Source: Streptomyces akebiae
GTDB lineage: Bacteria > Actinomycetota > Actinomycetes > Streptomycetales > Streptomycetaceae
DNA length: 64,000 bases
Direction: 5' to 3'
Assembly (NCBI RefSeq): GCF_019599145.1
Contig: NZ_CP080647.1
Span: 6,386,001-6,450,000 of the forward strand
Part shown: positions 54,696-60,311 of the stretch, piece after piece
How the letters are laid out: every line of letters begins with the position of its first letter
Numbering within the stretch: position 1 is the first letter of the stretch
The notes under the pieces: model-generated
The model's database searches: none
Seen by the model: the letters and a program-made list of their open reading frames with translations, nothing else
Told to the model about the DNA's origin: nothing
Made by a program: the position numbers and the translations under genes

Positions 54696-54699
54696 GTCG

Positions 54700-54773
54700 T
54701 GCGCCGCCAGGGACTCGAACCCCGGACCCGCTGATTAAGAGTCAGCTGCTCTAACCAACTGAGCTAGCGGCGC
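54700..54773 (-). tRNA. tRNA-Lys(CTT), copy 3
   Basis: Identical to the other two copies over 74 bases. Its first ten bases also form the 3' end of the upstream protein gene, whose TAG stop is the TAG of GCGCCGCTAGC. Confidence 0.97.
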
Positions 54774-55426
54774 CTGCTGACGTCGTAGACCTTAGCACCC
54801 TGATCGGCGGGAGGAAAAATCGATACGCGCACGGTCGCGGAGGCGCCCGACCGGGCCGCGCGCACGGCCGCCCAGAGCAGTACGTCGGGCCCCGGAAGCC
54901 AAGGTCGCCGGGTGTCCGGAGCGACCAGCCAACGGGACCCGAGGCGGGTGACACCGGGGGTGGCGGAGGTTGCGGAGCCGTCGGTTCCGCCGGAGTCCTC
55001 GGGGGCGAGCACGGCTGGGACGGTGACCGCGTCGCCGGTGCCGTGACACAGGAGGGGCGGGACCGCGCCGGTGCGGCCGGGGGAGCCCCACTCCTCCCAC
55101 TCCAGGAGGGTGGGCAGCCGGTGGGCGGTGCCGGGGGCGGCGAACAGGAGCACGCGCCCGCGGTAGACGGCGACCGGTCCGGAGCCGGGGCCCTCGGCCC
55201 ATAACCGGTCGAGCATCCGCCGCCCGAAGAGCGCAGGCACGCTGACGACGTCGAAGACGGTGCCGCACGGCAGTACCACCGGTGCCGTCGGCCGTTCCTC
55301 CCACAGCGTCAGCGTGCTGCGCGGATACGTTCCTGCCGAGGCGAGCCACGCGGCCCCTTCCACCGTGACCCCGGCGACATCGATCCCGTCCTCCGGATAC
55401 CTGCCCGTCCCCACTCCACCGCTCAT
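54764..55426 (-). CDS. Prim-pol-like streptomycete protein of unknown function
   Basis: A 220-residue soluble protein. AAWLASAGTYPRSTLTLW, PVVLPCGTVFDVVSVPALFGRRMLDRL and RVLLFAAPGTAHRLPTLLEWEEWG recall the C-terminal half of streptomycete proteins annotated as bifunctional DNA primase/polymerase N-terminal domain; no primase catalytic acidic pair could be placed. The ATG at 55426 starts MSGGVGTG. The reading frame runs into tRNA-Lys copy 3 and takes its stop there, giving a 10-base overlap and the C-terminal SRRR. Confidence 0.6.
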   Translation of the reverse strand: MSGGVGTGRYPEDGIDVAGVTVEGAAWLASAGTYPRSTLTLWEERPTAPVVLPCGTVFDVVSVPALFGRRMLDRLWAEGPGSGPVAVYRGRVLLFAAPGTAHRLPTLLEWEEWGSPGRTGAVPPLLCHGTGDAVTVPAVLAPEDSGGTDGSATSATPGVTRLGSRWLVAPDTRRPWLPGPDVLLWAAVRAARSGASATVRVSIFPPADQGAKVYDVSRRR

Positions 55427-55468
55427 GGCTCTAGATCTACCGCCCGTGACCACCCGCCCCCGAGCAGT

Positions 55469-55483
55469 TACCGGAAACCGGTA
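55469..55483. promoter_or_regulatory. TACCGG-AAA-CCGGTA palindrome
   Basis: A perfect 6-base inverted repeat with a 3-base spacer lies 43 bases upstream of the 54764-55426 gene, in a promoter-like place. An operator is possible. Confidence 0.45.
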
Positions 55484-55491
55484 CACGAGAT

Positions 55492-55513
55492 GGGCAAGTG
55501 GGGTATCTTGCCC
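55492..55513 (-). terminator. GGGCAAG/CTTGCCC hairpin
   Basis: A perfect 7-bp stem with an 8-base loop begins 37 bases past the stop of the 55550-55912 gene on the minus strand. Probably its terminator. Confidence 0.55.
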
Positions 55514-55549
55514 GCCCGGCATATGCCAAACGCTGTTTCATGCGCCTGG

Positions 55550-55912
55550 TCAGAGGGACTCCGGCCCACTCACGTCCCGCCCACGCAGCAGATCCCGCCC
55601 GAACTCCACCATCTTCTTGGCGTAGTCCTCGGTCCACTCCGCCCGCTCCGCGATGTCCGCCAAGGTCAGCCGATCGAAACGCCGGGGATCGGCGAGCTGG
55701 GCCGCGGCGATCGCCTGGAACTCCACGGCCCGGTCCGCCGCCGCCCGGAACGCCTGCGCCAGCTCCGTCGCCCGCGACAGCAGCGCCCGCGGATCGTCGA
55801 TCGACTCCAGATCGAAGAAGTGCTCGGGGTCGCCGGCCGCCTCCGCCGGCTCGAAGAGCAGGGGCGCGGGCCGCAGCCGCGGTTCGTTCCGACGCGACGT
55901 GGGCTCCGCCAT
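55550..55912 (-). CDS. Small helical protein of unknown function
   Basis: A 120-residue acidic, soluble, mostly helical protein with no known motif. PEHFFDLESIDDPRALLSRATELAQAFRAAADRAVEFQAIAAAQLAD looks like a long helical hairpin, and LTLADIAERAEWTEDYAKKMVEF resembles a degenerate helix-turn-helix. The ATG at 55912 follows AGGAGGAGAAGAC, a strong ribosome site. It lies between the unknown gene above and the helicase operon with its own terminator. Function unknown. Confidence 0.7.
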   Translation of the reverse strand: MAEPTSRRNEPRLRPAPLLFEPAEAAGDPEHFFDLESIDDPRALLSRATELAQAFRAAADRAVEFQAIAAAQLADPRRFDRLTLADIAERAEWTEDYAKKMVEFGRDLLRGRDVSGPESL

Positions 55913-56101: not shown

Positions 56102-57445
56102 TCAGGGCCCCCACGCCACGCGGTGCTCCGCCAGCGTCGCGAGCACCGCGTGGTTCGCCTCCCAGCCGTCCGGGAACTTCACGGTCACCCCCAGCTGGAC
56201 CGGCTCGGTGGACGGATGGTCGTCGAGCAGGTCGGTCACGCCCGCCCGGCACACCACGATGCACGCGTGCCGGTGCCGGGAGGCGAGGACGCACAGGCGC
56301 CCGGTCTCCAGGTGGAACGCCGTCGCGTCGGGGCGCCCGGAGAGCGGATGGAGGACGACCGTGACGTCGTACTCCCTCCCCTGGAGCCGATTCGCCGTGT
56401 CCACGACCACGTCCGCGACCCCCAGCTCGGCCAGTGCGGAGCGCACGGCGGCCGCCTGGTCGCGGTGGGCCGTGCCGACGGCGATCCGGTCGGCGGTCAG
56501 CGGCACGGGCTCCTCGGACCGCTCCGAGGTCGCCGCCCCACCCCGGTCGAGGAGCCGCCGTACGACCCGCGCGACGGCCCGTACCGCCTCGGGATCCGTG
56601 CGGGGGGTGTGCCGGGCCGGCAGTTCCAGCAGGCCCCACCCGGACTCGGCCGCCTCGTCGATGACCCGGTCCGGGCCGGAGCCGTCCGAAGGCACCGCGA
56701 ACCCGAGCCGCCGGTCCCCGTGGTCCGTGCCGCTGCGGAACGGGGTGAAGGGATAGAACGCGTCGGAGACCAGGGGCGCCGCCGACGCCGGGAGCCGCCA
56801 CGACACCGGCAGCCGGTGCTGCGGCAGCTCGGGGTTGTGGGCCAGCAGCGTCGTCACCGCCGAGGCCGACGGGTCGTACGACAGCCCCGCCCACTGCTCG
56901 CTGCCCACGATCGCGAACGGGTCCAGCTGCCCCGGGTCACCCACGAACAGCGCGCGTTCGAAGAGCCCCGCCACCGCCAGCAGCGCGTCCGACCGCATCT
57001 GGTACGCCTCGTCGACGATCGCGTGCCGCCACGGCTCGACGCCCTTGACGTGCGCCCACTTCGCGGCCGTGGAGATCACCACGTCCAGCCCGGCGAGATC
57101 GGCCGCCTTCGTCGACTTCCTTACGTTCGACAGGGCGTCCAGCGCCTTGTCGTACGGGTCGCTGTCGCTGCTGTGCAGCCGGCCGACCGGGAGTTCCGGG
57201 TCCTTCTCCGCGAGCCGGAGCACCAGATCGTCGACCTGCGCGTTCGTCTGCGCGATGACCATCAGCGGGCGCCCGGCCGAGGCGAGTTCGAGCGCGGCGC
57301 GGACGACGAGCGTCGACTTGCCGGCGCCGGGCGGCGAGTCGACGACGACGCCGCGCGCCTGACCGTGCAACGTGTCGCGCAGGATCGCGTCGGTGGCGCG
57401 GCCGGCCGCCGCCCCGGGGTCGAGGACGGCCTCGGTGGCGGTCAC
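56102..57445 (-). CDS. SF1B (Upf1/Dna2-like) helicase
   Basis: A 447-residue ATPase with the motifs of superfamily 1B helicases. Motif I is DSPPGAGKST (K43), motif Ia AQTNAQVDDL, motif II VDEAYQ (D145-E146), motif III GDPGQLDP (~169-176), motif IV-V SALAELGVADVVVDTANRLQGREYDV, and motif VI LASRHRHACIV. The 1B and 2B insertions are short. It lacks the nuclease domain found fused in Dna2, which here is a separate gene upstream. The ATG overlaps the preceding stop by four bases, so it is the third gene of a coupled operon. Confidence 0.85.
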   Translation of the reverse strand: MTATEAVLDPGAAAGRATDAILRDTLHGQARGVVVDSPPGAGKSTLVVRAALELASAGRPLMVIAQTNAQVDDLVLRLAEKDPELPVGRLHSSDSDPYDKALDALSNVRKSTKAADLAGLDVVISTAAKWAHVKGVEPWRHAIVDEAYQMRSDALLAVAGLFERALFVGDPGQLDPFAIVGSEQWAGLSYDPSASAVTTLLAHNPELPQHRLPVSWRLPASAAPLVSDAFYPFTPFRSGTDHGDRRLGFAVPSDGSGPDRVIDEAAESGWGLLELPARHTPRTDPEAVRAVARVVRRLLDRGGAATSERSEEPVPLTADRIAVGTAHRDQAAAVRSALAELGVADVVVDTANRLQGREYDVTVVLHPLSGRPDATAFHLETGRLCVLASRHRHACIVVCRAGVTDLLDDHPSTEPVQLGVTVKFPDGWEANHAVLATLAEHRVAWGP

Positions 57446-59055
57446 AGGACGTCCTCCTCGGTCACCGGGTCCGGCAGGGGTACGGCGTCGGGCTCACCCG
57501 GCGGCCCACCGTGCGTCCACGGTGTCTCCTCGGGGTCCGGCAGCTTCGCCCCGCCCCGCTGGTCGTGTTCGAAGAGGGTGAAGCAGAGCAGGTCCCCCTT
57601 CTCGGGGACCGAACCCACCTCCGGCTCCTTGCCCCGCCCCATCTTGTCCATGATCCGCAGCACCAGCAGGCTCTCGCCCCCGTCGAGCGCCTCGTCCGGC
57701 CCGTGCCCCACGAACTCCGCCGTCTGCGGCTTCCCGCCCAGCGAGCGGTACACCTTCGCCCGCTCCCCGAGATGCGGCCGGTCCCGCGTCCGTACGGTGA
57801 CCAGCGGCCGCGGGCTGGGGCGCTTGCCCTCGCTGTACGCCATCACGACGTCCACGACCTCACCGGCGAACGCTTCCCCGGCCAGCCGTCGCCCGGCCAT
57901 GACGAGGGGGTCGTCCAGAGCCTCCTGGGCGTCGAGGCGGGCCTGCTCACGCTCGCGCGCGGCCAGCTTGTTCGCGGCGGTGACCGCGTCGTCGACGCGC
58001 GGCTGCGGGGGCTCCCCGGCGGCGATCCGGTCCCGGTGGCCGGTGAAGGACCAGCGGTCGCGGGTCCACCGGTCGGCCGCGTGGGCGCCCTCCGGCAGGG
58101 CACGCAGCAGATCCAGGCCGTGCCAGACCGCGTCCCAGGTGGGCCGGGTGCGGCTCTCGACCAGGGCGCGGATCTCCTGCTCGGCGGCGGTCAGCGCCCC
58201 CAGCCGGTCGTCGGCCTCCAGGCCGTCCTCGGCGGCGGCCAGCGCGAGCCGCGCCCGGTCGTACCGCTCGATGGCCGGGGCCAGCAGCTTGTTGTCGAAC
58301 GCCGGATCGGTCGCGGGACCTGCGGGCGGGCACAGCAACTGGCCCTCGGCGTCCCGCGCCAGCTCGGCCCGCCGCGCCGCCGCCTCGCCCGACTCCCCCT
58401 CCGGCGGGTCGATCCAGGCGAGCAGCGACCCCAGGTGCTGGTCCTCCACCCCGGACTGGCCGGTGGCCCAGTGCCGCGACAGCAGGTCGGTGAGCGCGAG
58501 CAGCAGCGAGGAGCCCGGCACCCGCGCCCGCTCCCCGAAGTGCGTGAGCCACCGCCCGAGCAACGGCACGCGCGGCGGTGCCGGATGGGGCGCCTCCGGG
58601 TCCTGCTCGGCGGTGCGCCGGAACCGCATGGAGCGCCCGAGGAGCCGTACGAAGTCGATGCCCGTCCGGCTCGGCAGGATCAACTGCGGGGCGTCCGCGC
58701 ACAGTTCGACCTCGACCTTGACGCGTTTGCCGGTCTCCGGGTCGGTCTCGTTGCGCTCGGCGGCCTCCACCACGTCGGCGTAGCCGTCCACGTACGGCAG
58801 GACGATGTCCGCCAGCTCGGCGAGGAACGCGAAGCGCAGGTCACGGTCGCGGGGCTGGGGCACCACCAGCAGGCGGGGCGCGTCCCGGTCGGTGCCGACG
58901 AGCGCGCCGAGCGGCGCACCGGCCTCACCGGCGGTGGTGAGCGGCACGAGGACGAGGGGGTGGGCGGTCAGATGCCGGTGCAGGACGGTGGCGGCGGGCT
59001 GGGCGCGGCCCGTGCTGACGGCTTCGAGCCGGGCGAGGGTGGTGATCAGCGACAT
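57442..59055 (-). CDS. Conserved protein of unknown function in a nuclease-helicase operon
   Basis: A 537-residue soluble protein without a recognised domain. The N-terminal ~180 residues look alpha/beta (PLVLVPLTTAGEAGAPLGALVG, LRFAFLAELADIVLPYV). The middle (~220-370) is rich in Arg/Ala/Glu helices (ALDDPLVMAGRRLAG and coiled-coil-like AAREREQARLDAQEAL). The C-terminal ~110 residues appear beta-rich (RPLVTVRTRDRPHLGERAKVY, SLLVLRIMDKMGRG). Start and end overlap its neighbours by 10 and 4 bases, so it is a component of one complex with the nuclease and helicase. It may be a DNA-binding or regulatory subunit. Confidence 0.8.
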   Translation of the reverse strand: MSLITTLARLEAVSTGRAQPAATVLHRHLTAHPLVLVPLTTAGEAGAPLGALVGTDRDAPRLLVVPQPRDRDLRFAFLAELADIVLPYVDGYADVVEAAERNETDPETGKRVKVEVELCADAPQLILPSRTGIDFVRLLGRSMRFRRTAEQDPEAPHPAPPRVPLLGRWLTHFGERARVPGSSLLLALTDLLSRHWATGQSGVEDQHLGSLLAWIDPPEGESGEAAARRAELARDAEGQLLCPPAGPATDPAFDNKLLAPAIERYDRARLALAAAEDGLEADDRLGALTAAEQEIRALVESRTRPTWDAVWHGLDLLRALPEGAHAADRWTRDRWSFTGHRDRIAAGEPPQPRVDDAVTAANKLAAREREQARLDAQEALDDPLVMAGRRLAGEAFAGEVVDVVMAYSEGKRPSPRPLVTVRTRDRPHLGERAKVYRSLGGKPQTAEFVGHGPDEALDGGESLLVLRIMDKMGRGKEPEVGSVPEKGDLLCFTLFEHDQRGGAKLPDPEETPWTHGGPPGEPDAVPLPDPVTEEDVL

Positions 59056-60311
59056 GGAACCTCCCGCGGCGCCGAGCCGGGCAGCGCGCCGACGGCCCCG
59101 CGCCCGGCGGCGGCTCCCAGCGCCTCGGCCCTGAGCTCCGCCGCTCTGCGCAGCGCGGCCACGGCCGGGTCGTCCGGGTCGCCGGCGAGGCCGTGGGCCG
59201 CCGCCAGCACGTCGTCGACGGTCGTGAGACCGCCCAGCTCCGCGCGTGCGGCCCGGCCCAGGGACGTCACCGCGCCCTCCGAACGGGAGCGGCCCCGGCA
59301 GTGGAAGGCCAGCTCGCAGGCGGCGAGGCACTCGGGGGCGTAGGTCGCGGAGAGCGCCTCGACGGCCGTCGTCAGCTGCTCCCGCGGCAGGTCCGGGGCG
59401 AAACAGGTGCCCTCGGGGAGGTCTTCCGCGATCTCCTCGATGCGGGTCAGCCGGGTCAACTGGCGCCGGGTGACCGCCCGTTGCTTGCGGATGTCCACCG
59501 CCGCGGCCGTCGGGAGGTTGGTGAAGTCCTTGGGGCAGACCAGGAGCACCCGGTGGCGCACCTCGGGCGCGGGGGTGCCGCCGCGGGCCTCGCCGCCGAG
59601 CCGGGCGGCGACCTCCTCCAGCGCCAGCACGTACACCGCGGACTGGCGGGCGGCGGCGCCCACCTTCGCCGGGTCCGCCGAACCGTCCAGCATCGGGAAG
59701 GACTTGATCTCGACGACCGACCAGGTGCCGTCCGGGTGGATTACCACCGCGTCCGGCTCCAGGAACGCGGGGGAGCCCGCGACGTCGAGCGCGAGCATGG
59801 GGTGGTCGAGCAGCGTCCAGCCGCCGGTGTCCGTGGCCTCGCGCAACGCCAGTGCCGTACGGGCGGCGCGGCCCTCGGGGCCGACGGCGGCGAGGTCGGG
59901 GACCGAGGCCGTGGCCGGCGGCTCGGCACCGGGGTCCAGTCTCTCGTGCACCAGCCGCAGCAGTTCGGCGCCGCCGTCCGCCTTGACCCGGGCCTCGAAG
60001 GCGTTGCCCCGCATGAAGGCGAACTGGGACTGGCCGAAGGCGGAGGGCGAGCCGAGCGCGCCCGCCAGGACCGCCTTGTTCACACCCGCGCCGTCCAGCA
60101 GCGCGCGGCGCTCGCAGCCCGGGTTGGCCGCGAGCGCGGCGAGGGCGCGCGCGTCCAGCGCCTTGGGTGGGACCTCGGGTCCGCGCAGCTCAGCGAGCCG
60201 CTGCCGCAGCGCCGTCCCCTGTCTGCGAGGGGCTGGCACCCGGCTCGGGTTCGGTGATCCGCTGCCGTGGAATTCGCTCACCCGGGGAAGTCTGGCACTC
60301 GGCACTGACAA
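59046..60311 (-). CDS. RecB/Cas4-like PD-(D/E)XK nuclease with Fe-S cysteine set
   Basis: A protein of up to 421 residues; GTG starts at 60305 and 60281 are alternatives to the TTG at 60311. The nuclease core is FLEPDAVV (D187) then SVVEIKSF (E201-x-K203), and Q223-SAV-Y227 is the Q-x3-Y motif of RecB-family nucleases. C66 with C328, C332 and C338 gives C-(n)-C-x3-C-x5-C, the 4Fe-4S pattern of Cas4, AddB and Dna2. The Cys cluster closing the domain predicts a redox or clamp element for ssDNA processing. It heads the operon nuclease-unknown-helicase and overlaps the PAP2 gene end by ~120 bases. Confidence 0.82.
   Translation of the reverse strand: MSVPSARLPRVSEFHGSGSPNPSRVPAPRRQGTALRQRLAELRGPEVPPKALDARALAALAANPGCERRALLDGAGVNKAVLAGALGSPSAFGQSQFAFMRGNAFEARVKADGGAELLRLVHERLDPGAEPPATASVPDLAAVGPEGRAARTALALREATDTGGWTLLDHPMLALDVAGSPAFLEPDAVVIHPDGTWSVVEIKSFPMLDGSADPAKVGAAARQSAVYVLALEEVAARLGGEARGGTPAPEVRHRVLLVCPKDFTNLPTAAAVDIRKQRAVTRRQLTRLTRIEEIAEDLPEGTCFAPDLPREQLTTAVEALSATYAPECLAACELAFHCRGRSRSEGAVTSLGRAARAELGGLTTVDDVLAAAHGLAGDPDDPAVAALRRAAELRAEALGAAAGRGAVGALPGSAPREVPCR

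Follow-up and report, generated by a model that had tools for sequence, protein, structure and literature searches.

Three overlapping Streptomyces genes as a probable split form of a DNA2/Bad-like helicase-nuclease

Can a helicase-nuclease be distributed over three separate chains, and what would its middle part then be? This question is raised by a locus of Streptomyces akebiae lying in a window of 64,000 nucleotides, the whole stretch of DNA that was analysed (positions 6,386,001 to 6,450,000 of NZ_CP080647.1, that is 6.39-6.45 Mb of contig C1 in the 10.5 Mb genome G000). Three genes of the minus strand are found there, called here nuc (59046..60305), mid (57442..59055) and hel (56102..57445). 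A preliminary description, made from the sequence alone, saw in them a split Dna2-like operon, in which an iron-sulfur (Fe-S) nuclease and an SF1B helicase are joined by a 537-residue protein without a known domain. The three frames were indeed located on the minus strand, with overlaps of 10 bases between nuc and mid and of 4 bases between mid and hel. The analysis presented below indicates that the operon probably specifies a helicase-nuclease of the DNA2/Bad kind, divided over three chains. The grouping of the genes and their motifs are conserved, as the preliminary description required; the predicted fold speaks against its view of mid as a domain-less bridge. No earlier report of such a split operon was recognised in the open-licence literature, in which the Bad protein was found. 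What is new is that an enzyme type already known appears here in divided form, in a genomic context not found described in that literature.

The iron-staple nuclease and the conservation of the trio

The nuc product combines the D, E-x-K and Q-x3-Y motifs of PD-(D/E)XK (RecB/Cas4-type) nucleases with the four-cysteine 'iron staple' pattern, and so fits the iron-staple RecB family (Cas4/AddB/Dna2). One cysteine is N-terminal and three are C-terminal of the nuclease core, as in Cas4, AddB and Dna2. These residues, all singled out beforehand, are near-invariant in an alignment of 107 rows, window included, from which translated frames outside length limits (for instance nuc frames below 330 or of 700 residues and more) were excluded. 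The first cysteine, C66 (codon 60114..60116, minus strand as for all positions given here), is present in 106 rows, the remaining row being truncated. The catalytic D187 and E201-x-K203 (codons 59703..59753) are each kept in 105 rows, and all 107 rows keep Q223, Y227 and the C-x3-C-x5-C group formed by C328, C332 and C338 (59298..59330). This numbering belongs to the 421-residue frame first proposed (59046-60311), in which the residues lie where they were said to lie. The TTG start of this frame at 60311 is probably not the right one: the GTG at 60305, two codons further in and leaving 419 residues, is the likelier start because the Streptomyces relatives begin at the same place. The predicted fold of nuc matches Cas4, EXO5, AddB and Dna2 by structure comparison, and no match was obtained in Pfam, NCBIfam or PADLOC at E up to 1. 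The cysteine pattern suggests that the protein carries an Fe-S cluster. A paralogous trio at loci L013 and L014 encodes a nuclease with L-x-R where E-x-K stands elsewhere.

The distribution of the trio can be followed through its middle gene. Among 61 relatives, mid was matched in 44. These are the 37 genomes of the genus without exception (36 congeners besides the genome of the window, with partial matches in a few) and, in family f3, 7 genomes out of 14. In an even sample of the phylum, it was present in only 11 of 296 genomes, and the trio is therefore taken, for this sampling within the phylum, as a system of certain actinomycetes. The predicted adjacency in relatives was observed, since all three genes stand together in 31 of 32 mid-bearing loci (window included); the exception has Ns at the position of nuc. 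Comparison with six congeners gave ratios of nonsynonymous to synonymous substitution (dN/dS) of 0.20-0.27 for nuc, 0.17-0.21 for mid and 0.12-0.15 for hel.

A wider scan, of one genome per species over 84,980 species, yielded at least 594 relatives, the best 80 of which are designated here as the named loci. They belong to Nocardia, Actinomadura, Micromonospora, Streptosporangium, Nonomuraea, Frankia and kin. In 79 of them nuc adjoins mid, the 80th being a contig edge, and hel lies within the fetched DNA in 68, at 1.0-2.4 kb from mid in four cases. For the remaining 12 loci, from Micromonospora and Verrucosispora, a hel gene was located at another place in every genome (12/12; the contig of L137 stops at mid). 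With starts picked by script, 4-base overlaps are seen repeatedly at both junctions across the named loci.

Hel, mid and the mid-hel pair

The assignment of hel to the Upf1/Dna2-type SF1B helicases is borne out by AAA_11 (2e-11) and AAA_12 (5.8e-8) and, among PDB sequences, by matches to SMUBP-2, Dna2 and Upf1. The Walker A PPGAGKST (residues 38-45, 57311..57334) and the DE of Walker B (residues 145-146, 57008..57013) are conserved at each residue in at least 97% of 100 rows, and the 1A/2A helicase motifs are present. Only 37 residues precede Walker A, and residues 31-80 of hel align with residues 206-255 of SMUBP-2, so that hel is shorter by about 175 N-terminal residues. The stalk and the 1B barrel, expected in the same chain of an Upf1-like SF1B helicase, appear to be absent from hel. 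In view of this early Walker A and of the missing N-terminal residues, hel seems to consist of the 1A/2A core alone and to have no 1B region of its own.

The middle protein is without a known domain as far as sequence searches are concerned: mid has no match in Pfam, NCBIfam or PADLOC (E up to 1) or among PDB sequences, which argues against a family known by sequence. This description does not seem to hold for its predicted structure. The AlphaFold2 (AF2) model (predicted local distance difference test, pLDDT, 89.6; predicted template modelling score, pTM, 0.87) appears to be composed of an RNase H/DnaQ-like fold, long helices and a beta-barrel. The RNase H-like part (residues about 31-250, 58306..58965) resembles the exonuclease of family B polymerases. 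The barrel (residues 394-496, 57568..57876) resembles domain 1B of Sen1/Setx, its best structural matches, which belong to the same helicase class as the adjoining hel. These assignments come from a second look with VIA-align, whose rows are conditional on the Foldseek list, Foldseek itself giving no hit at E 0.001 or better in PDB and BFVD. No invariant or near-invariant D/E is found at residues 34-40 of alignment A6 (59 rows), and the RNase H-like body is probably non-catalytic. Since the predicted fold unites an RNase H-like part with a 1B-like barrel, mid would be part of the helicase and not an unrelated bridge.

A complex of mid and hel is supported by one natural fusion. In genome G562 (L214), both genes form a single open frame of 933 residues, the only clean case among 157 pairs (some loci fetched twice); no nuc-mid fusion was present in 171 pairs. 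Locus L024 of genome G010, a candidate for a nuc-less locus with fused mid-hel, was rejected, as it has Ns at nuc and a frame-broken mid. On plasmids of Mycolicibacterium, Xylanimonas and Rhodococcus (L056, L057, L059), a hel relative adjoins a gene distantly resembling mid (hhalign 93.9%, E 1.6e-7), the pair being preceded by an AAA ATPase gene, MoxR-type by our reading, and by a VWA-like gene. No match to nuc was obtained by tblastn at these operons, which suggests that mid and hel are the older pair. A link between these plasmid operons and the published MoxR-vWA conflict systems was not found: the passages of PMC7159879 at hand name neither Upf1 nor Dna2 nor Rhodococcus, and they report SF1 helicase modules beside PIN domains. 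Another feature of hel is that a piece of its 3' end is repeated downstream in L003, L008, L011, L028 and L031. In L031 a recombinase-like gene, judged as such by eye, separates the copies, which lie at a distance of about 4.5 kb, so that integration may take place at the 3' end of hel.

Relation to known enzymes and proposed action

Like the trio, the Bad protein of Geobacillus stearothermophilus associates, in this order, an iron-staple RecB-family nuclease, an extra central region and an SF1B helicase. Its paper (PMC7430649) describes it as a 5'-3' translocase and single-stranded DNA (ssDNA) endonuclease, and calls unknown the structure and function of its central domain, which is absent from eukaryotic Dna2. 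Bad differs from the trio in forming one chain and in being sporadic rather than core.

The TM0106 family (TIGR03491) combines a nuclease, RNase_H_2 and AAA_11/AAA_30 in the same order as nuc, mid and hel. In two Actinomycetota proteins of this type, RNase_H_2 occupies about 313-507 and the AAA domains begin at about 750. The trio is colinear with these TM0106-type proteins, which differ from it in being fused, whereas the trio has separate chains. By hhalign, hel matches their helicase part (98%, E 2.8e-14) and nuc matches weakly (3.4%, E 0.013); mid has no sequence homology detectable by this profile comparison. Neither nuc nor mid matches the TIGR03491 model over the cut-off, and mid lacks RNase_H_2 (PF13482) in Pfam at E up to 1. 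TIGR03491 occurs in none of the 37 Streptomyces genomes and passes the cut-off in 35 of the 296 phylum genomes, against 11 for mid, with genome G107 holding both. No exclusion can be claimed from these figures, and the idea that the trio replaces TM0106 was abandoned.

Eukaryotic Dna2 shares with the trio the Fe-S PD-(D/E)XK nuclease, matched to nuc by structure, and the SF1B helicase, matched to hel by sequence. It differs in being a single chain and is not known to have an RNase H-like domain. The nuclease-helicase fusion in one polypeptide, characteristic of DNA2 and Bad, is not found here, the genes being separate. AddAB and AdnAB, helicase-nucleases with RecB-type nuclease domains, are also among the structural matches of nuc; they use UvrD-type motors and carry the nuclease on the same chain as the motor.

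In the enzyme proposed, hel would be the 1A/2A motor, and mid would provide the missing 1B-like barrel together with a probably non-catalytic RNase H-like body. On the predicted structures, mid and hel would make up a complete SF1B translocase, tracking 5' to 3' on ssDNA at an end, a flap or a stalled fork. By analogy with Bad, the iron-staple nuclease nuc would clip the single strand fed to it, and the outcome could be end resection, flap removal or the degradation of unprotected ends. What the data show directly is the operon with its conservation, motifs and co-occurrence, the folds as predicted, and a single mid-hel fusion. We infer complex formation, the Fe-S cluster, polarity and substrate and, for the core Streptomyces copy, a housekeeping role at DNA ends; this version suits end resection or flap trimming.

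Additional copies, their neighbors and the competing readings

In the window, the DNA 3' of hel (54699-55912) holds an unnamed gene of 120 residues, a Prim-Pol domain gene (PF09250, 1.4e-6) and a tRNA-Lys (CTT). A different neighbor, hyp281 (about 270 residues, alignment A8), immediately precedes nuc in 62 of the 80 named loci, a few others being contig edges. It carries an SLRRDEERS-like motif (e.g. L054:4455-5300, also L016 and L061-L140), and two members showed no Pfam family over the cut-off. This gene is not in the window genome; it occurs in 7 of the 61 relatives, each time beside a trio. In Streptomyces, 35 hyp281-bearing copies were found in 32 of 392 genomes, additional to the core copy and all with the full trio (including L013-L016 and L045). 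They do not form one clade: a quick tree built from 82 mid rows requires 6 changes of the label, of which at least 3 are forced; in it, L015/L016/L054, which form the SbcCD group, and the pair L013/L014 lie apart, and the row L101, scored as 'none', is a contig edge. The term hyp281-bearing is a label by gene content.

Divergent and adjacent SbcD-SbcC genes accompany 20 of these 35 copies (a piece of SbcD only in L015). Genes of Wadjet (JetABCD) types I or II, a distinct system based on structural maintenance of chromosomes (SMC) proteins, are found no more than about 10 kb away from 10 of the 35, all among the 20 linked to SbcCD. With each genome counted once, this gives 9/17 against 0/15 (Fisher p 0.001, relatedness ignored). 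Behind hel come the type II genes JetA2-B2-C2 in L015/L016, L199 and L201, and those of type I (JetABCD) in L191, L192, L194, L195/L219 and the plasmids L054/L055; L045 has its type II genes beyond SbcCD. The presence of either type behind similar blocks (L016, L054, L055, L191, L199, L201) looks as if a cassette had been exchanged. Outside the genus, L021 has type II with JetD2, L102 has hel, SbcD-SbcC, JetA2 and JetC2, and in L022 (G049 C112:138283-139021) a decayed DUF3375 gene (JetA type I) with stop codons directly follows hel. In L135, SbcCD is present and Wadjet is unmatched.

This association is restricted. Neither SbcCD nor Wadjet was matched, in the fetched DNA and with the queries used, in 78 of the 80 named loci, only L102 (both) and L135 (SbcCD) departing from this. 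DUF2397 occurs in 27 of the 61 genomes, with 36 of its 39 match rows away from any trio and 3 beside one. On these grounds Wadjet was rejected as a general partner of the trio, and accompanies one subgroup rather than the trio family as a whole. An intact Wadjet JetA, whether of type I or type II, is lacking in the window genome; a DUF2397 fragment lies about 1 Mb off, no DUF3375 was detected, and type III was not searched.

Some additional copies lie close to chromosome ends. A hyp281-bearing copy is found twice, mirrored from both ends of the chromosome contig, at 6.7 kb, 24.2 kb and 24.3 kb in G622 (L195/L219), G377 (L212/L213) and G451 (L216/L220) respectively. These mirrored, SbcCD-linked copies are read as lying in terminal inverted repeats. 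Another SbcCD-linked copy is 4.7 kb from one chromosome end (G417, L193), and hyp281 is about 11 kb from the end of the 300-kb linear plasmid NZ_CP108489. A hyp281-bearing copy of G432 is about 520 kb from the end, and the SbcCD-less ones on chromosome-size contigs (G009, G500, G518, G575, G590) are more than 1 Mb from the ends. In the SbcCD-linked copies, blocked ends would be opened by SbcCD, and Wadjet, which cuts small circles, would create further ends (PMC10586767, PMC12904381); the trio of the hyp281-bearing copies, often paired with both, could process the ends that these enzymes expose. A tentative extension, possible but on the unlikely side, regards the six-gene block SbcC-SbcD|hyp281-nuc-mid-hel of one group of Streptomyces copies, with its interchangeable Wadjet I/II and its possible position at the ends of linear replicons, as a self/non-self system of such replicons. 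Wadjet would linearise circular invaders, SbcCD and the split DNA2-like enzyme would destroy ends devoid of a telomere cap, and the core trio would be the general end-processing form.

The same neighbors could mean that every version of the trio, core copy included, is an immunity effector degrading foreign DNA, in a dedicated anti-mobile-element system. Beside the ten Streptomyces copies, Wadjet is found at L021, L054, L055 and L102, and decayed at L022, and other defence-type genes lie near L013, L014, L045 and L212 (pPIWI_RE/PprDinG-type genes adjoin L013 and a Snf2-type helicase gene adjoins L014). Such a function is nevertheless unlikely for a version present in all 37 sampled genomes of the genus, without hyp281 in the window genome, and for a family with so few SbcCD or Wadjet matches among the named loci. 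Moreover, relatives of mid were found neither in viral contigs (two peptide patterns only) nor in phage records, which also speaks against a phage or prophage origin of the trio.

It is very improbable that the trio acts on RNA or R-loops like Sen1/Senataxin, with mid as an RNase H-like reader of RNA-DNA hybrids: its fold and the Setx/Sen1 likeness of its barrel invite this idea, but nuc resembles DNA-cutting families, SbcCD and Wadjet act on DNA, and no acid is conserved on strand one of the RNase H-like region. It is hardly credible either that the three proteins are co-regulated and work separately, as the 12 Micromonospora and Verrucosispora genomes with hel outside the DNA fetched around nuc-mid might suggest, for all 12 retain hel, the 4-base overlaps recur, a mid-hel fusion exists and mid seems to provide a region missing from hel.

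If the trio is indeed a split DNA2/Bad-like enzyme, every sampled Streptomyces genome (37/37) encodes, as separate parts, a DNA2-like machine that has no name yet. Such a division would then be a natural test of the central part of bacterial DNA2-like enzymes, with mid as a candidate for its stand-alone counterpart. The hyp281-bearing copies put a DNA2-like enzyme side by side with Mre11-Rad50 (SbcCD) and with the SMC plasmid-cutter Wadjet, some of them at chromosome ends, and would, if this reading is true, link the resection of ends to plasmid immunity and to linear telomeres in a way that can be tested directly.
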